A DNA stretch of 62,285 nt from an uncultured Sulfuricurvum sp. (GTDB lineage: Bacteria > Campylobacterota > Campylobacteria > Campylobacterales > Sulfurimonadaceae): contig CAIMUF010000018.1 of NCBI GenBank assembly GCA_903844635.1, positions 1 to 62,285 on the forward strand. Reading direction: 5' to 3'. Shown here in pieces: positions 1 to 10,127 of the stretch. The stretch's first letter is position 1; every line of letters begins with the position of its first letter. The notes beneath the pieces were generated by a model. The model saw nothing but the letters and a program-made list of their open reading frames with translations. It ran no database searches and was not told the origin of the DNA. Made by a program: the position numbers and the translations under genes.

Positions 1-132
1 GGTGGTGTTGAAAAAACCGTTGACGAATTTGGTTTGGGCATGTTAACTGCAGCGGGAATCGGTATTGCGATCCATGCAGCAGCAAGCGCCGTAGCCGGTA
101 AACGAGAAAAATCAGGAGAGAGCCATGAGTAA
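1..132 (+). CDS. hydA: [NiFe]-hydrogenase small subunit, C-terminal end (partial)
   Basis: Frame 1 is open from the window edge to a TAA at 130-132 and overlaps the large-subunit start by 8 nt. The visible 43 residues hold a hydrophobic stretch (LGMLTAAGIGIAIHAAASAV) followed by a basic, polar tail. This fits the C-terminal membrane anchor of the Tat-exported small subunit of group 1 hydrogenases, which carries the iron-sulfur clusters and passes electrons to the cytochrome b. The Fe-S ligands lie outside the window, so identity rests on the anchor and on position immediately before hydB. Confidence 0.85.
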   Translation, partial: GGVEKTVDEFGLGMLTAAGIGIAIHAAASAVAGKREKSGESHE

Positions 133-1900
133 GCATATTGTAGTTGACCCTATTACACGTATCGAAGGACATTTGCGTATTGAAGCAGTTATTGATGATA
201 ATAATACGATCGTAGATGCGTACAGCTCTTCGACGATGTTTCGCGGAATTGAGACCATTTTACAAGGGCGTGATCCACGCGACTGCGGATTGTTGGCAAT
301 GCGTATTTGTGGTGTTTGTACCGGTACCCACTATCAACGTTCAATCGAAGCGGTAGAAGATGCATTTAAAATCACCATCCCTAAAAATGCACGTCTTGTA
401 CGGAATTTGATTCAAGGTGCGTTGTATCTTCATGACCACGTGGTTCACTTTTATCACCTTCATGCGCTTGATTTCGTGGATGTTGTTTCTGCTCTTTCAG
501 CGGATCCTGTGAAAACTGCAGCAGAAGCTCGCAAATGGGCTACGGTTGCAGGCGAATCACCTTTTACGGATGGTGAAAGCGAGTTTAAAGCAATCCAAGA
601 TCGTGTTGCTAAATTTGTAAAACAAGGTCGTTTGGGAATTTTCGGAAACGGATACTGGGGCAATCCTCATTATAAATTGACTCCGGAACAAAACCTTATC
701 GGTGTTGCTCACTATTTGCAAGCGTTGGATATTCAACGCAATATGGCAAAAATGCAGGCGATCTTAGGCGGTAAAAACCCGCATCCTCAAAGTATCGTTG
801 TTGGTGGTGTAACGTGTATTCAGGATATCCAAAATCCTGCACGTCTTGCACTCTTCAAATCATTGCTTTTAGATGCACGTAAATTTATCAAGCAAGCTTA
901 TCTTCCAGACGTCTATATGGCGGGGACTATGTATGCTGGAGAAGCGACTGATTCAAAAGCTACCTTTACTGAGCTTATGGCTGGCAAAGGTGTTGGCGGA
1001 ACAGGCGGCGGATTGCTCAACTATATGAGTTACGGTGATTTCCGTCTCGATGATACCGGTTTTTACAAATCAGCACTTCTCTTCCCAAGCGGAGTAGTCT
1101 ATGGTGGAGATATCAGCAAAGTAGCGGATATTGATCCGGATAAAATCGCTGAAGACGTGACGCACTCATGGTACAAAGGGGATAAACCTCTCCATCCGTA
1201 TGAGGGACAAACGATTCCTGAATATACTGGGCTTGATAAACGTGAAGATGGAATTGCTTATCTCAAAACAAAAGAAAAATACAGCTGGATTAAATCTCCA
1301 ATCTACAACGACACTCGTGTTGAAGTAGGACCGTTGGCACGTATGCTTATCGGTGTTGCACGTAAAGATGCCCGTATTAGTAAATATGTGACTCAGTTTT
1401 TAGAGCGCGGAAATTTACCGATTGCAGTGTTGTTTAGTACAGTCGGACGTACTGCTGCGCGTGCTATTGAAACTGAATTGATGTCAGATGTAATGGTTGA
1501 TTGGATCGACGAACTTGCTAAAAATGTTGCGTCTGGTGATAAAAGTACATGGACTGAGTTTGACTTTGATGCCGTAAGTGTTAGTACTAAAGGTCGCGGT
1601 ATGGCGGAAGCTCCTCGTGGCGCACTGGGTCACTGGGTTCGTATCGAAAATGGAAAAGTAGCCAACTACCAAGCCGTCGTTCCATCAACATGGAATGCAG
1701 CACCTCGTGATCACAAAGGTCGTTTAGGTGCGTATGAAGCAAGTTTGATCGGAACCAAAGTTGCCAATCCAGAGCAACCTCTTGAGATTATTCGAACCAT
1801 TCACAGTTTTGACCCTTGTATTGCTTGTGCCGTACACGTTGTCGATACCAAAGGTAAAGAGCTTGCTGTTTACAAAGTAGATACTGTTTGCAGTATCTAA
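125..1900 (+). CDS. hydB: Uptake [NiFe]-hydrogenase large subunit
   Basis: This 591-residue protein is the catalytic subunit that splits H2 at the periplasmic face of the membrane. The N-terminal nickel-binding motif RICGVC supplies Cys62 and Cys65. The C-terminal motif DPCIACAVH supplies Cys565, Cys568 and His571. The 20 residues after His571 are the tail normally removed by a dedicated endopeptidase once the NiFe(CN)2CO centre is inserted. An AGGAGAG ribosome-binding site lies just before ATG 125, inside the end of the small-subunit gene, so the two are translationally coupled. Family assignment to a group 1 membrane-bound enzyme follows from the hydABC order and the downstream cytochrome b. 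Confidence 0.97.
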   Translation: MSKHIVVDPITRIEGHLRIEAVIDDNNTIVDAYSSSTMFRGIETILQGRDPRDCGLLAMRICGVCTGTHYQRSIEAVEDAFKITIPKNARLVRNLIQGALYLHDHVVHFYHLHALDFVDVVSALSADPVKTAAEARKWATVAGESPFTDGESEFKAIQDRVAKFVKQGRLGIFGNGYWGNPHYKLTPEQNLIGVAHYLQALDIQRNMAKMQAILGGKNPHPQSIVVGGVTCIQDIQNPARLALFKSLLLDARKFIKQAYLPDVYMAGTMYAGEATDSKATFTELMAGKGVGGTGGGLLNYMSYGDFRLDDTGFYKSALLFPSGVVYGGDISKVADIDPDKIAEDVTHSWYKGDKPLHPYEGQTIPEYTGLDKREDGIAYLKTKEKYSWIKSPIYNDTRVEVGPLARMLIGVARKDARISKYVTQFLERGNLPIAVLFSTVGRTAARAIETELMSDVMVDWIDELAKNVASGDKSTWTEFDFDAVSVSTKGRGMAEAPRGALGHWVRIENGKVANYQAVVPSTWNAAPRDHKGRLGAYEASLIGTKVANPEQPLEIIRTIHSFDPCIACAVHVVDTKGKELAVYKVDTVCSI

Positions 1901-1910
1901 GGAGCCAATC

Positions 1911-2621
1911 ATGAAACAGGGGTACAAACAAGTCAAACGTATGACACCTGCTATGCGCATCATCCATTGGGTGAATGCGTTTAGTATGCTTGGAGCTGTC
2001 ATTACAGGTCTTTATATTGGACATCCGTATTATCAAACGTTTATCGCGGATGGTGCGGTTGATAAATATGTGATGGCATGGAACCGTTACGGGCACTTTA
2101 TGATCGCGATTATTTTTGATGTAACATCGGTAGTAATTGCTTATCTTTATTTTTTCAGTCGATTTGAGAAGCCTTATAAGAAGCTCATTCCGAATGGAAA
2201 AAATATTACTGAATTTAAAGCAGTTCTGATCAATCTTTTGACGTTAAATCGTAAAAAAGAGTTTGATTCATCTCATGCTGACAGTTTCAATACGGTCTAT
2301 TTTACGATTTTTCATCTGCTTCTCGTGTGGATGCTGTTTACGGGTCTTCAGATGTATGTACATGGTTTGGGATCAGGAATCAGCTCTATTGGAGCATGGT
2401 GGCCGTGGATGCTTCATCTTGTGACGGATTGGACGATTCCTGTTACAGGCGGAAGTTTGATGGATGTCCGTATTGCTCACCATATGAGTATGTGGTTTAT
2501 TGTCTGCTGGGTGGTATTTCATATCTATTACCAAGTATGGAGAACTATTTTCTGGAAAGAGGCGGATATCGCTATCGTTATCGGCGGATCTAAGTTTGTT
2601 AAAGACGATACATTAGATTAG
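1911..2621 (+). CDS. hydC: Hydrogenase cytochrome b subunit
   Basis: This 236-residue integral membrane protein belongs to the HupC/HyaC di-haem cytochrome b family, which anchors the hydrogenase and moves electrons from the small subunit to the quinone pool. Four hydrophobic segments are visible, at roughly residues 20-40, 60-85, 130-155 and 185-210. His residues typical of haem ligation sit in them (IIHWVNAF near residue 17, FHLLLVW, AHHMSMW and VFHIYYQ). The start follows a clear AAGGAG site 10 bp after hydB, and the gene ends directly at a dispersed 80-bp repeat. Confidence 0.94.
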   Translation: MKQGYKQVKRMTPAMRIIHWVNAFSMLGAVITGLYIGHPYYQTFIADGAVDKYVMAWNRYGHFMIAIIFDVTSVVIAYLYFFSRFEKPYKKLIPNGKNITEFKAVLINLLTLNRKKEFDSSHADSFNTVYFTIFHLLLVWMLFTGLQMYVHGLGSGISSIGAWWPWMLHLVTDWTIPVTGGSLMDVRIAHHMSMWFIVCWVVFHIYYQVWRTIFWKEADIAIVIGGSKFVKDDTLD

Positions 2622-2782: not shown

Positions 2783-4702
2783 ATGGCATTTACGTTAGAG
2801 GTAATGACCTCTTTTTCACAACCTATGATTAAAAATTATTTGATTTCTATTATCCGCACATTCGGGATTAAAGCCGTTGTTCATCAACAAAAGACAAAGA
2901 TTATTTGTGCTTTTGACAGTGGTCATGAGAAGCTCCAAGAGTGTCTTGAATCGATTGGAACCAATCTTCCTGCATCGTGTTTTATGACAAAAAGTGAGTT
3001 TTACGACATCGAGGGAGAACCCGAAACGGTTCCTGATTTTGATATCGAGTATCCGATCGCGTTGGGATTGTGTCCCGGTTGTCAAAAAGAAATGTTCGAT
3101 CCTGGATCAAAGCGGTACTATTATCCTTTTACGCACTGTACTCATTGTGGGGGGCAATATGCTTTTTTCGATCATTATCCCTATGTACGTAGTAATACAG
3201 CACTATCCTATGTGAAGCCCTGTCCTACGTGTGAAAAAGAATCCGTCAGTTTTGGACGACGTGAAAAACAAGTATTGAACTCTTGTCACGAATGCGGAAT
3301 CCCTGTCAAATTGATCCATAAAGGCAATGAACGTTATGCCAACGATCCGGGAAGTTTTCGAACCATGTTTGAAGTTGCCGCGAAAGCATTGCGTGACGGT
3401 AAAACACTTTTGATGAAAACGACGATGGGATATCGGCTCTTTTATCGTACGGATAAATTGGATCAGGGTTCGGTTTTGATGCTGACCAATGCGATGAAAA
3501 TCACAGAATATTGTTCACTGATCAATGATGAATTTAATGCACTGCTAAGCATCGAGCGTCCAATTATTCACGCAGCACTCAAAGATGAAACCCTGCGCAG
3601 TACGTTTGGCGCAACCATTGATGTCAAATATCCGGATGAAGGATTTTCAATCCTCTTGGGCAAAGAGTTGACCCTTTTAGGTCTTGATTTTATTGCATAC
3701 AGGGCATTGGAGTCTGCTGTTGAAGCCGATCTTAGTATGGACTTTGATTTAAATATCCATTCGCAAAGTGATATGCGCCTTTTTATCAACAAAGATGTGA
3801 AATTTATCGCTTCAGGTGAGCGTGTTTCATTTCCTGCACGTCTCCCATTTGGTACAGATACTCTTAGTATTGCCAATGGATTGGTAGGCATTAAAGATGA
3901 AAAAGGGATGCTATTTGATCAGATGGAGCGTTTTTCCTCTGCTTCTACACTGAAAGTCAATCAGCTCGAAACCGAAATTCCTGCTGTTGAATCTGCCAAC
4001 TTTCACACGATGGCAGAAGATGAAGCGTCGTTTATGTCGGTCATCGCGGAGCATAACAAATTTGGAACAAAAGTGGTCGGAGCCTATTTTGAAGGGGAAC
4101 CGTCATTTTTGTATTATGATGGAAAAAAAGTGATTCGTGTTGTTCCTCCTAAACCATTTAGCCCTGAGGGACTGCTGGAAAAAATGGCGACGTTGCGAGA
4201 GGGATCGGATCGTTTGGTGGCAAATATGCGAATAAAACTCCCTGAGATGGTTGAAGCATTATCATCACTAAAAGAGGGTGCGACTCTTTTTGAAGCGACG
4301 GCTATCATTTTGGATTTGGAAGAGAAAAGTTATGAGGGAGTGATGAAAGAGGCATTGAAATTCGTCGGAAAAGGCGGGCTTCAAATCGATACGAAAGTAG
4401 AAGATAACCGATTTAATCATGTTGCTTTTTTATCCAGTATCATTAGCTACCGTCTTGCAGATGTCGATGCCGTCTATTTGAGCTATTCTATTTTTGAATC
4501 CTTTGGCGATTATTTCAGTGAACTTCTCACCGAAATAAAAGGAAAAACCAAAGCATCGGATGTAGTGCTTTGTGGGTCGTATTTCGCTGGACAGTCTCTT
4601 TTTAGCCGTTTACAGAGAAACTTGAAAACCACACCACCTTTAATGAATGTAAGTTACCCCATTGGGAAAGAAAGTTGTGTCGTTGGCGGAGTCTTTTTAT
4701 AG
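2783..4702 (+). CDS. hydE: HydE hydrogenase accessory protein, HypF-like but with degenerate active sites
   Basis: This 639-residue protein follows hydABC, where Campylobacterota keep hydE, a gene needed for hydrogenase activity. It aligns with HypF along its whole length. An acylphosphatase-like N-terminus (about 10-80) lacks the catalytic Arg loop. A zinc-finger region (97-171) keeps all eight Cys in CxxC pairs with HypF spacing (2-18-2-24-2-17-2). A YrdC-like part begins near 205 without the RRKHRKAKP nucleotide site. In the Kae1-like C-terminal part the HHxAH metal motif reads EDEAS. The name is family- and context-based. The inference is a structural or scaffold role in cofactor delivery rather than carbamoyl transfer, which the intact hypF at 6682 would perform. 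Confidence 0.82.
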   Translation: MAFTLEVMTSFSQPMIKNYLISIIRTFGIKAVVHQQKTKIICAFDSGHEKLQECLESIGTNLPASCFMTKSEFYDIEGEPETVPDFDIEYPIALGLCPGCQKEMFDPGSKRYYYPFTHCTHCGGQYAFFDHYPYVRSNTALSYVKPCPTCEKESVSFGRREKQVLNSCHECGIPVKLIHKGNERYANDPGSFRTMFEVAAKALRDGKTLLMKTTMGYRLFYRTDKLDQGSVLMLTNAMKITEYCSLINDEFNALLSIERPIIHAALKDETLRSTFGATIDVKYPDEGFSILLGKELTLLGLDFIAYRALESAVEADLSMDFDLNIHSQSDMRLFINKDVKFIASGERVSFPARLPFGTDTLSIANGLVGIKDEKGMLFDQMERFSSASTLKVNQLETEIPAVESANFHTMAEDEASFMSVIAEHNKFGTKVVGAYFEGEPSFLYYDGKKVIRVVPPKPFSPEGLLEKMATLREGSDRLVANMRIKLPEMVEALSSLKEGATLFEATAIILDLEEKSYEGVMKEALKFVGKGGLQIDTKVEDNRFNHVAFLSSIISYRLADVDAVYLSYSIFESFGDYFSELLTEIKGKTKASDVVLCGSYFAGQSLFSRLQRNLKTTPPLMNVSYPIGKESCVVGGVFL

Positions 4703-4800: not shown

Positions 4801-4837
4801 ATGTTAACTTTTCATGAAATCAAGAGGGCAAATGCGC

Positions 4838-6664
4838 ATGACAATACAATTTAGATTAATACTTGCGGCAGCACTAAGTTTAATGGTGATGCTAATAATT
4901 AGCATTGTCTCATACATGACCACCGAATCGGTTCGAATCAAAGGTGAAACGTACAATAAAATCATCTTATCAAAAGATTTGATCGCGGACATATTACCAC
5001 CTCCTGCGTATATTATTGAGGCACGTCTTGTGACCTATGAGATGATTGATGCAGAAAATAAAGAAAAATTAGAGCCTTTAGTGACGAAGTTTTCAGGACT
5101 TGAAAAAGATTTTCTTGATCGTCAGAGTTACTGGGCAGCCAGCGAGCTCAATGGCGAACTAAAAGGGATGATTACATCTGGGGCTAAGTCAGCGGCTTTG
5201 GAGTATTTCGATACCGTTAAGAGTCAATTGATCCCTCTGGTAGAAAATGGTAGCAGTACCGAAGCAAGAATTCTTCTTCATGGTAAATTGGAAAAAATTT
5301 ATATGGAGCATCGGAACAATATTGATGCGATTGTGAAAAAGGCAACCCTTCAAGCCAAAGCGGATGAAGAAGTTTCAGATGAGCTTCTTTCATCGGGAAT
5401 GACACAAATGGTAGTAAGCGGAATGCTCGGTATGATGATTTTATTTGCCGTATTTTTTCTTACAAGCCGTGCCATCGTTGGACGGATTCGCCAATTTGGT
5501 CAGATCGCTTCTGATCTTGCATCGGGGGATGCTGATTTGGACAAACGAATGCCCAGTCAAGGTGTGGATGAGATTGATGATGCATCGGAACGCTTTAACC
5601 TATTTTTGGAGAAAGTTGCCAATATTGCGCATGATGCGCAGATAGATGCTCATAATGCTCATGTTGCAAACGAAAAAGCCAATAAAAGTTTAGTCCATTC
5701 GGATATGATGATTGACTTATCCGGTCACATGAGCGGAGGCGCAGTGAGTGGAGCTAAAGATTTACAAGAGTCAGCTCAACATGCAGTCAACAGCCTCACA
5801 GAGGTAAATGCCCTTAATTCATCGACCGCTGAAGTCGTTTTGGAAGTAAAAGACAGTACCGGCGGAATCATCGAGGCTATTAGTCTTATTTCAGAGATGA
5901 TCAATGAAAACCGTGATAATGCACAAGAACTTCAAAAAAGCATTGGTGATATATCACAAGTAATCTCTCTGATCAAAGACATATCCGATCAAACCAATTT
6001 GTTAGCTCTCAATGCTGCCATCGAGGCTGCGCGTGCAGGAGAACATGGGCGCGGTTTTGCGGTGGTTGCCGATGAGGTACGGAAACTTGCTGAACGTACT
6101 CAAAAAGCAACTTCTGAGGTTGAATTGACGATTAATATGCTCAAGCAAAGTGCGGGATCGATGGTTGAGAGCAGTGAAACGACTGAAAAATATGCGGCTG
6201 ATTCGAGACAAAAATTGAATGATTTTACGCAATCATTGAGTTCTCTGATCGAAAAATCTGAGATTATTAAACATGATAATGAGTTTATATCGTTTGAGAT
6301 TTTCGGTATTTTGGCCAAACTCGATCATTTAGTCTTTAAGCTCAACGCTTACGGATCTGTTTTCGATAATGAGCTAAAAGCACAGTTTGGTGACCATCAC
6401 GGTTGCCGGTTGGGTCAATGGTATGAACATGGAGAAGGCAAAACTGCATTTGGTGCCACAGATTCGTACCGTCGTCTTGAAGCGCCTCATAAAATTGTCC
6501 ATGAGAATGTCCTGCGTGCGCTAGAGTGCGTCAAGCGAAACGATTGCGTTGAACGACGCGATGAGATTTCATCTGCCTTTGCTGAAACCGAACGTCAAAG
6601 TTCTCTCTTGTTTGGAATCCTCAATGATATGATTAGTGAGGCTAGAAATAGATCTCATTCATGA
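4838..6664 (+). CDS. Methyl-accepting chemotaxis protein with C-terminal CZB domain
   Basis: This transmembrane chemoreceptor has about 608 residues. A first membrane helix is at about 6-28, a helical periplasmic sensor at 30-185, a second membrane helix at about 190-210, and a HAMP segment follows. The signalling hairpin tip is unmistakable ([20 protein letters not shown]). The C-terminus carries a chemoreceptor zinc-binding (CZB) domain with HxxCxLGxWyxxG and downstream HxxVH. ATG 4838 is preferred because AAGAGGG lies 9 nt upstream; ATG 4814 and 4832 are in frame but poorly spaced. It sits between hydE and hypF, so it may tune motility to H2, redox state or metal availability. The ligand cannot be read from the sequence. 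Confidence 0.92.
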
Positions 6665-6681: not shown

Positions 6682-8955
6682 GTGTCTGAACAATACGTCC
6701 ACGTGCACATCATAGTACGTGGAATCGTGCAGGGGGTAGGATTTCGCCCTTTTGTCTATCGTGAAGCCAAGACACACGGGTTAAAGGGCTTTGTTATCAA
6801 TACCGCTGATGGAGTCGTCATCGAAGCCGAAGGGTTGGACTCTGAGGCATTTATTAACGATTTACGAAAAAATCTTCCCAAACATGCCCGTATCGATTCG
6901 ATGGAAATTGTTGAGAGTGAATCCTGCGGTTATACCGATTTTGAAATTCGAGAAAGTACGCTAGGTGTTGGGAGTGTTGCTATACCTTTGGATACAGCAT
7001 TGTGCCGTGCGTGTGAAGCAGAGATGGATGATTCTGCTAATTGCCGTTACCGCTATCCGTTTATCAACTGCACCGACTGCGGGCCTCGTTATACCATCAT
7101 TCAAATCCCTCCTTATGATCGTGTCCGAACGTCGATGAAACATTTTGCGATGTGCGATGCCTGTCATACCGAATATACCGATCCTTCTTCTCGCCGTTAT
7201 CATGCCGAACCGATCAGCTGTCCTGATTGCGGACCAAAGCTGACATTTTTGGACAATGTAGGTTTAGAAATAGAGGGTGATCCGATTGCGTTGGCAGTTG
7301 AGATGCTCAAAGCAGGGAAAATTATTGCACTCAAAGGGCTGGGGGGATTTCATCTGATGTGCGATGCGACTTCCGATACCGCTGTGGCTGAATTACGACG
7401 TCGAAAACACCGAAAAGCCAAGCCCTTAGCCGTGATGTTTCGCTCCCTCGAACAACTGCAAGAGTATGCCGTGGTGAACGAGGAAGAGAGAGCTCATATC
7501 ACGGGAGCCATCAAGCCCATAGTGATCGTCCGTGCCAAAAGTGGAACAAATCTCTCTGTGCACGTCGCCCCTTCGATTGACCGGTTGGGAGTATTTCTCC
7601 CCTATACCCCACTTCATCGACTCCTATTTGCGACAATTGATTTTCCGTTGATTGCCACGAGCGCGAACATCAGCGATGAACCCATCATCGTAAAAGCCGA
7701 TGAGATTTCACACAGACTGGGAAATGTTGTGGACGGGATCGTGAGTCATAATCGTAGCATCGTCAATGCGTTGGATGACTCCGTCATTCAAATCGCACAG
7801 GGGCACGTTGTGATGCTTCGGATGGGGCGAGGATTTGCACCGCATACGCTTCTTTTGACAAATGCCATTGATAAAAATATTTTAGCCCTCGGAGCCCATC
7901 AAAAAAGTGCCATAGCTCTGGGCGTCAAGAAAAATATGGTGTTGAGCGGGCACATTGGTGATTTAGGAAGCATCGAATCGGATGGATATTTTGAAAAGAC
8001 GGTTCAAACGTTCAAGCGGTTTTATGAGTGTGAACCGACCTTGTTTATTAGCGATTTACACCCTCATTACTCCTCAACACGTTATGCCAAAGAACAAAAA
8101 AAAGAACACTATGGTGTTCAACATCATTATGCGCATATTCTCGCCTGCATGGGAGAATATACGTTGGATGAAAAGGTACTGGGGTTTGCATTTGACGGTA
8201 CTGGATATGGCGACGATGGCAGTCTATGGGGTGGTGAGGTGATGATTGCCGATAATCATGGATATGAACGAATCGGATTTTTAAAACCGTTTGCTCTTTT
8301 GGGTGGGGACAAAGCGATCAAAGAACCTCGTCGAATTGCGTTGTCACTGTTGTTTGAGTGTTACGCCCTGGAAGAAGTACTGGGATTGAAATCCCCTGCT
8401 ACGGAATCTTTTTTAGAGTACGAAATCCGTCAGCTTCACCACATGTGGACGAAACAGCTCAATTCTCCGCGAAGCAGTTCGATGGGTCGATTGTTTGATG
8501 CGGTTGCCTCATTGGGCGGATTTATTCAAACACTTGACTATGAGGGGCAGGGGGGAATGATAATGGAATCCTTTGTCGATGACTCGATTACGGAACCGTT
8601 TGATTTTACTGTGACGGATAGAGAAGTTGTTTTATCTCCGATGGTCGAACAAATAGTCGCGTTAAGCACTCAAAGCGATGCCAAACGCCTGATTGCCAGC
8701 CGATTTATTGCTACGGTAGAAGCTATGATGGAATATTTTGTTAATTTACACCCTGAATACCCCGTGGTCATCGGTGGCGGTGTGTTTCAAAATCATGCTT
8801 TGATGAGCCGATTGTACCGACGTTTCGGCGAGAGACGATTTTACGCACAACAGCAAACTCCGGTTAATGACGGGGGAATTGCACTCGGACAACTTTATTA
8901 TGCTTTAAATAATCTCCCGTATCCGAAAGATACGGGTAGCTTTAGGGGGTTGTAG
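6682..8955 (+). CDS. hypF: Carbamoyltransferase HypF
   Basis: HypF makes the thiocarboxamide on HypE from carbamoyl phosphate, the precursor of the two cyanide ligands of the NiFe centre. The 757-residue protein has every expected domain: acylphosphatase with VQGVGFRPF (about 16-24), paired CxxC zinc fingers (about 110-190), YrdC domain with RRKHRKAKPLAV, and a Kae1-like domain with the HHYAH metal site, FDGTGYGDDG and GGGVFQNHALM. The start is GTG, preceded by AGGGAGA. It lies 17 nt after the chemoreceptor gene and is probably co-transcribed. Confidence 0.97.
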   Translation: MSEQYVHVHIIVRGIVQGVGFRPFVYREAKTHGLKGFVINTADGVVIEAEGLDSEAFINDLRKNLPKHARIDSMEIVESESCGYTDFEIRESTLGVGSVAIPLDTALCRACEAEMDDSANCRYRYPFINCTDCGPRYTIIQIPPYDRVRTSMKHFAMCDACHTEYTDPSSRRYHAEPISCPDCGPKLTFLDNVGLEIEGDPIALAVEMLKAGKIIALKGLGGFHLMCDATSDTAVAELRRRKHRKAKPLAVMFRSLEQLQEYAVVNEEERAHITGAIKPIVIVRAKSGTNLSVHVAPSIDRLGVFLPYTPLHRLLFATIDFPLIATSANISDEPIIVKADEISHRLGNVVDGIVSHNRSIVNALDDSVIQIAQGHVVMLRMGRGFAPHTLLLTNAIDKNILALGAHQKSAIALGVKKNMVLSGHIGDLGSIESDGYFEKTVQTFKRFYECEPTLFISDLHPHYSSTRYAKEQKKEHYGVQHHYAHILACMGEYTLDEKVLGFAFDGTGYGDDGSLWGGEVMIADNHGYERIGFLKPFALLGGDKAIKEPRRIALSLLFECYALEEVLGLKSPATESFLEYEIRQLHHMWTKQLNSPRSSSMGRLFDAVASLGGFIQTLDYEGQGGMIMESFVDDSITEPFDFTVTDREVVLSPMVEQIVALSTQSDAKRLIASRFIATVEAMMEYFVNLHPEYPVVIGGGVFQNHALMSRLYRRFGERRFYAQQQTPVNDGGIALGQLYYALNNLPYPKDTGSFRGL

Positions 8956-8979: not shown

Positions 8980-9023
8980 GGGCTTTGCTCGAAAATAGTG
9001 ATATATTAAATAAAAGGATAATA

Positions 9024-9581
9024 ATGAACGCTAAAGTCGCATTGATAGGATCAGGAAACGCATTTTTTATGGATGAGGGGATTGGACTGTACGCGGGAAA
9101 ATACCTCAAAGAAAACTACACGTTTGAGCCTGAATTGGACATTATCGATGGTGGTACGCTTGGTTTTGGTTTGATGCCTCTGCTCCAAGAGTATGAAGTT
9201 GTGGTAATCGTCAATACCAGTTCTGATGATGGTAAAATCGTAGGAGATATCGATGTTCTCAGCGGTGACGAACTCATTGCTAACCAAGGGATCAAAAAAA
9301 CGGCGAATGAAGTCGAGATTACTGAAATGCTCCAAATCTGTTCGATGGCAAACCATTGTGCGCAAACCTCCATGGTGAGTATCGTACCTGAAGACATTAT
9401 CAGTGTTCACGTTGGGGTCACTCCTGCTTTGCGCGAAAAATGGATGGAGTACATTGATGTGATTGTGAGTGAGCTGGCAAAATGCGGGATCAATAGTACA
9501 CGTAAAGAGTCTGTGATGGGGCTGGATGAGATACTCGACCAGTTTGCCAATCCCAGTATCGAACACGGTAAAGGATTTTAA
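9024..9581 (+). CDS. HyaD/HybD-like hydrogenase maturation protease homologue lacking two nickel ligands
   Basis: This 185-residue protein has the fold signature of hydrogenase endopeptidases (GSGNAFFMDEGIG at the N-terminus, IIDGGTLGFGLM near 45). Compared with E. coli HybD, the first nickel-sensing residue (Glu16) is kept. The position of Asp62 reads Asn (IVNTSS) and that of His93 reads Asn (TANEVEITEML). It may therefore be a non-proteolytic chaperone or regulatory partner. ATG 9024 is chosen because AAAGG lies 6 nt upstream; an earlier in-frame ATG at 8985 has no site. A second homologue with a better-conserved site starts 3 nt downstream. Confidence 0.85.
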   Translation: MNAKVALIGSGNAFFMDEGIGLYAGKYLKENYTFEPELDIIDGGTLGFGLMPLLQEYEVVVIVNTSSDDGKIVGDIDVLSGDELIANQGIKKTANEVEITEMLQICSMANHCAQTSMVSIVPEDIISVHVGVTPALREKWMEYIDVIVSELAKCGINSTRKESVMGLDEILDQFANPSIEHGKGF

Positions 9582-9584
9582 TCC

Positions 9585-10127
9585 ATGTCGATTGTTGTAC
9601 TGGGCGTCGGAAATGTGCTCGAAGAAGATGATGGAATCGGTATCTATGCGGCAGCATATCTTCGTGCCAATTATACGTTGAGTCCTCAGGTTCAGGTCAT
9701 TGACGGCGGAGTGGAGGGGATCAATCTTCTCAATCTTTTTTTAGAAAATGACCACATTATCATCCTCGATACGATCAATCTCGATGACAGTGCAGGAAGT
9801 ATTTACAACATCCCCTCGTATGAACTTAGCGGATATGGACTTAACAGTGGCGGTGCACATGAAGTAGGTGTGATGCAGTGTCTGGATATGATCGAGCTGA
9901 TGGGGAAACCGCTTCCAAAATCGAATGTATTGGGGATTGTCCCTGCTACGATTTCTTTTCGCATGGGACTAAGTCCAGACCTCACGGATAGGTTTGATAG
10001 CTATATCGCAACGATTATCAACTATCTCAAAACCTGTGATATTGAGGTGGGTAAAAAAGAGTCCCTTCAAACGCTATTAGAGATTATCGATGAATTTAAA
10101 TATCCAACTCATCTGTCCAAATTATAG
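9585..10127 (+). CDS. hydD: Hydrogenase maturation endopeptidase
   Basis: This 180-residue protein would remove the C-terminal tail of HydB after nickel insertion. The conserved GVGNVLEEDDGIG, IDGGVEGINLL, ILDTINLDD and GGAHEVGVMQCL segments place Asp, Asp and His at the three nickel-sensing positions; Asp for Glu at the first also occurs in HycI. It is 3 nt after the upstream paralogue. Its stop overlaps the convergent toxin gene by 6 nt. In Wolinella-type operons hydD sits between hydC and hydE; here it has moved behind hypF. Confidence 0.93.
   Translation: MSIVVLGVGNVLEEDDGIGIYAAAYLRANYTLSPQVQVIDGGVEGINLLNLFLENDHIIILDTINLDDSAGSIYNIPSYELSGYGLNSGGAHEVGVMQCLDMIELMGKPLPKSNVLGIVPATISFRMGLSPDLTDRFDSYIATIINYLKTCDIEVGKKESLQTLLEIIDEFKYPTHLSKL

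Follow-up and report, generated by a model that had tools for sequence, protein, structure and literature searches.

HydE encoded with a Sulfuricurvum [NiFe] hydrogenase is a HypF-fold pseudoenzyme and a candidate hydrogenase-specific assembly factor

Introduction

Operons for HydABC-type [NiFe] hydrogenases can carry, behind their structural genes, a gene called hydE. What its product does is a question raised by a stretch of 62,285 nucleotides from an uncultured Sulfuricurvum sp. (GCA_903844635.1, contig CAIMUF010000018.1, positions 1 to 62,285), hereafter the window. Its forward strand encodes the type I hydrogenase large subunit HydB with a C-terminal extension past DPCxxCxxH (125..1900), the cytochrome b subunit HydC (1911..2621), placed in the order of the annotated S. 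paralvinellae locus, and HydE (2783..4702), which starts with ATG and has 639 amino acids. A chemoreceptor gene (4814-6664) separates hydE from an intact hypF (6682..8955, forward strand), whose product is a carbamoyltransferase of 757 amino acids. This hypF starts 1,979 bp downstream of hydE, as the first-pass annotation had noted with its figure of 2 kb; most close relatives have no such gap, the two genes being directly adjacent or overlapping. At one locus (L011), the gap between the two genes was about the size of the chemoreceptor-containing gap of the window.

In the hydABCDE operons for the [NiFe] hydrogenases of Wolinella succinogenes and Helicobacter pylori, hydE likewise follows hydABC, and hydrogenase activity depends on these homologs. 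Gross and Simon reportedly found in 2003, to judge from the title of their work, that hydE is essential for hydrogenase formation in W. succinogenes. According to an account in PMC7695850, which cites Benoit 2004, H. pylori hydE mutants lacked hydrogenase activity, were not rescued by nickel and had normal urease, which indicates a role other than nickel supply; in the same account the function of H. pylori HydE is unassigned. Relatives of HydE are labelled hypothetical proteins in RefSeq, and HydE is not mentioned in a review from 2025 on how the [NiFe] cofactor is assembled (PMC12134894). The hydE gene itself was already known, and its likeness to HypF may have been noticed earlier.

The HydE of [FeFe]-hydrogenase maturation has the name alone in common with this protein, being an unrelated radical SAM enzyme. 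In PMC4794192, HydE was counted as an [FeFe] maturase in all eleven Sulfurospirillum-related genomes, while all three maturases were present in only three of them, possibly through a mix-up with the unrelated [NiFe] HydE.

Results and discussion

Homology of HydE and HypF

A profile of 42 long HydEs aligned with a profile of 47 HypFs over 600 columns, near end to end (hhalign, E = 8e-36). HydE shares the domain order of HypF (TIGR00143; PDB 3vth, 3vti, 4g9i, 3tsp), namely an acylphosphatase-like region (aa 1–93, 2783..3061), two zinc fingers (3071..3148 and 3221..3295), a YrdC-like region (aa 172–330, 3296..3772) and a Kae1-like C-terminal region (aa 345–639, 3815..4699), all on the forward strand. 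Identity between the two families was ~19%, and HydE is ~120 residues shorter. The first-pass annotation had called HydE a whole-length HypF copy; the whole-length homology stands, while "copy" is too strong a word at this identity, which is also too low to support a recent duplication of hypF as its origin. The HypF of the window resembles an archaeal HypF far more than it resembles HydE, and together with the low identity this means that the split between HydE and HypF is old or that HydE has evolved very fast.

Single-sequence searches found mainly the fingers. The Pfam model zf-HYPF matched HydE in two stretches (E = 1.6e-14), and a pairwise BLAST alignment with HypF lay mainly near the fingers (E = 2e-16). 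The Pfam acylphosphatase and YrdC models gave no match in HydE, the second Kae1 subdomain scored 22.2 bits, under its cut-off of 27, and NCBIfam TIGR00143 (hypF) scored 97.9 bits, far from its cut-off of 466.1. The four cysteines of finger 1 (C97, C100, C119, C122) and of finger 2 (C147, C150, C168, C171) were assigned from the Pfam matches and from their spacing, and all eight are shared with HypF. Their gaps are 2-18-2-24-2-17-2 in HydE versus 2-18-2-24-2-18-2 in the HypF of the window, so the earlier observation of eight cysteines with HypF spacing was borne out apart from a single difference, a second finger shorter by one residue. The pattern did not appear in any of 20,000 shuffles of the HydE sequence, and the eight cysteines were 98–100% conserved in the profile alignment of the long HydEs (n = 42).

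Predicted structures also pointed to HypF. An AlphaFold model of the whole protein, built from 17 sequences, was of low confidence (pLDDT 55, pTM 0.36), yet a Foldseek search with it gave HypF chains as the top nine PDB matches, led by the HypE-HypF complex 3vti (E = 1.4e-15); the TM-scores were low, meaning that the domains of the model are placed unlike those in HypF. In VIA-align, aa 1–70 matched ferredoxin-like folds and aa 172–321 matched YrdC domains (Z 9–11, rmsd 2.7–3.3 Å, ~130 residues). The region aa 345–639 modelled alone reached a pTM of 0.68; its five best VIA-align matches were HypF (Z 12.5–13.1, rmsd 3.4–5.1 over 201–247 residues), followed by Kae1/TsaD. A fold unlike HypF had been named beforehand as an outcome speaking against the HypF-like reading, and HypF was instead the best match.

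Loss of catalytic sites under purifying selection

Unlike HypF, HydE has three sites without catalytic residues. We compared residues that are 98–100% conserved in the 47 HypFs with the 42 long HydEs in the profile alignment. In the acylphosphatase-like region, the catalytic Arg and Asn are lost, with R22 of HypF aligned to a variable position (K17) in HydE and N40 aligned to Q35. In the YrdC-like region, R239, K242, R244, K247, S327 and N329 of HypF are replaced or deleted: the nucleotide-site loop RxxKxRxxKPxAVM is gone and TSAN is absent. The Kae1-like region is devoid of the metal ligands, and HHxAH (481–485), DGTGYG and D730 of HypF are all missing. Two YrdC residues survive, K218 and G222 of HypF being kept in long HydEs as K212 (98%) and G216 (100%). 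The absence of the enzyme sites proposed in the first-pass annotation therefore applies in full to the acylphosphatase Arg and HHxAH, and to most of the YrdC site.

Against five relatives, the dN/dS of HydE was 0.05–0.07, compared with 0.08–0.11 for hypF and 0.03–0.05 for HydB. These values rule out a decaying pseudogene, and purifying selection stronger than that on the intact hypF, together with the loss of the sites, indicates that HydE is a working, maintained pseudoenzyme. Broken frames were seen at two places: G163 has a second, interrupted copy of hydE, and in G036 the gene is split in two frames (L064 5064-7016; L065 4322-6081).

Variable zinc fingers and an invariant core

Colinear HydEs over the Campylobacterales have two, one, half or no fingers. 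Forms of ~640 amino acids have two fingers, those of 585–610 have two or one, those of ~470 have one CxxC, and others of 485–610 have no C4 finger. Alignments of the ~470-aa and ~510-aa types to long HydEs were colinear (E = 8e-68 and 8e-59, respectively). Finger-less HydEs lie downstream of hydB in genomes of families f2 and f3, whose likely identities are Helicobacter and Campylobacter, and differ from the HydE of the window in being shorter and having no C4 finger. On a tree that was unrooted and made with sparse columns removed, the finger state changed at least five times; loss would be the direction of change if the ancestral HydE had the two-finger state of HypF. The kept fingers had been singled out as the key feature of HydE, a claim that fails in other families, where colinear HydEs are trimmed or finger-less. 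We thus rejected the idea that the fingers are the essential retained part of the HydE family, given their repeated trimming and loss. In the ~470-aa HydEs (L047-L055, L057, L063, L066), one CxxC, in most cases with a CxH behind it, stands at the place of finger 1 and is possibly a shrunken C3H zinc site.

Residues invariant in all HydE types were L254, E258 and P260, the latter two within the SIERP motif (aa 256–260, 3548..3562, forward strand), which is conserved between HydE types, and D536, S555, E572 and G598. They sit in the YrdC-like remnant and in the Kae1-like C-terminus, where the family core consists of GGxxID, SxxSY, YSxxES and G598.

These residues also bear on whether HydE is still an enzyme. 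A rebuilt site could be made from the kept Lys and Gly of the YrdC part and the acidic E258, D536 and E572, and the near-complete conservation of K212 and G216 in long HydEs and the invariance of the three acidic residues in all types are in its favor. The K212 region is, however, lost in the ~470-aa HydEs, and the metal ligands and phosphate loop are gone from their known positions, so we regard catalysis by HydE as highly improbable. The conservation of K212 may instead mean that HydE binds some ligand.

Association of HydE with one hydrogenase type

In an even sample of 45 genomes from the class, in which the positions of hydE and hydB were compared by eye, HydE was present in every genome and lay at most 3 kb downstream of hydB in 38. 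It was on another contig in G005 and G041, ~7 kb from hydB in G033, and far from hydB in G011, G025, G038 and G046, all four of genus g14; in G011, hydE (L154) adjoins hypF. HydE falls into types I and II, and its type equalled that of HydB in 84 of 84 pairs. All 11 genomes with two close hydABC-hydE units had matching types, with one hypF in the cluster. In a search for HydE outside the Campylobacterota, which covered plasmids only, the two records with at least 80% coverage were Sulfurimonas and Sulfurovum.

Several genomes that had hypF and gave no HydE match carried a HydB relative of ~50% identity; the small subunit of its operon was ~808 amino acids where the sequence sufficed to read it. 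The apparent exception, G356, has a hydE cut by a contig end. At the loci of a second hydrogenase, group 1-like and with a small subunit of ~808 amino acids (L174-L178, L180, L181, and G000:C48 of the genome of the window), no HydE was seen nearby. An isoform of HypF serving another hydrogenase is an unlikely identity for HydE, as genomes with a single HydABC keep both genes.

The pairing of HydE and HydB types is evidence for dedication to one hydrogenase, a further difference from HypF, and would fit binding to the large subunit; linked inheritance in place of contact could account for much of it. It also weighs on the proposal that HydE modulates the cyanide branch by binding HypE or HypF and so controls the carbamoyl and cyano supply to the hydrogenase. 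Several observations agree with such control, among them the HypF fold, the HypE-HypF complex as best Foldseek match, the frequent overlap of hydE with hypF, and the g14 locus L154 with hydE beside hypF and far from hydB. Yet HydE pairs with the type of HydB while hypF is common to both, a pairing for which a general regulator has no need, and we find this proposal rather doubtful.

Possible role in hydrogenase assembly

Homology, site loss, selection and the link to the hydrogenase all held for the earlier suggestion of a pseudoenzyme tied to hydrogenase maturation. We propose that HydE, a full-length but catalytically inactive HypF paralog, is a dedicated assembly factor of HydABC-type [NiFe] hydrogenases, a reading to which we give about even chances. 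HydE would bind the precursor of its cognate HydB through the conserved YrdC-like and Kae1-like core and, by analogy with the adaptors HupK and HoxV, might present it for Fe(CN)2CO insertion from HypCD and HypE; the zinc fingers would be dispensable structural or docking parts. HoxV and HupK are relatives of the large subunit, and HoxV carries Fe(CN)2CO (PMC12134894). In functional terms, HupK/HoxV and HydE would be alike as dead paralogs of the hydrogenase pathway serving as hydrogenase-specific scaffolds, with the difference that the former resemble the large subunit and the latter resembles HypF. On this reading, dead paralogs would have given rise to hydrogenase-specific assembly factors by a second route in addition to that of HupK/HoxV.

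The step affected by HydE could instead be folding, export or membrane attachment. If HydE acted after cofactor loading, it would, as a chaperone, assist the assembly of HydA with HydB, Tat export or attachment to the membrane, which would suit its occurrence with the membrane-linked HydABC operon. A table in PMC7695850 states that H. pylori HydE localises the hydrogenase complex to the membrane, but this entry is an annotation with no test shown there, and the fold of HypF is an odd start for an export factor; we consider action after loading unlikely. The reading of HydE as a dead HypF that assists assembly gives a specific and testable idea of its function and points to the parts of the protein to mutate.

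A second dead paralog in the operon

Two paralogs of the HydD/HybD protease are encoded downstream of hypF on the forward strand. The second (9585..10127) keeps the metal-ligand triad (D, D, H). The first (8985..9581) has lost two of the three ligands, keeping E and having D and H replaced by N; in an alignment with HybD (1cfz), Asn occupies two of the three ligand positions, where HybD has Asp and His. With HydE and HypF and the two HydDs, two maturation steps in this class of operon are represented by both a live and a dead protein. It is tempting, and still quite speculative, to suppose that in these bacteria dead copies of two maturation enzymes, HydE from HypF and the ligand-less HydD from the processing protease, double the pathway, each as a holder specific to its large subunit that would position the HydB precursor for the live enzyme, with a matched set per hydrogenase and one HypF shared.

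Over 124 aligned rows, including the two copies of the window, ligands were lost in 32 (ENN in 23, EGN in 6, ESN in 2 and DSN in 1). Such losses were seen repeatedly, in several families, and all eight genomes with the loss that were checked have an intact copy as well.
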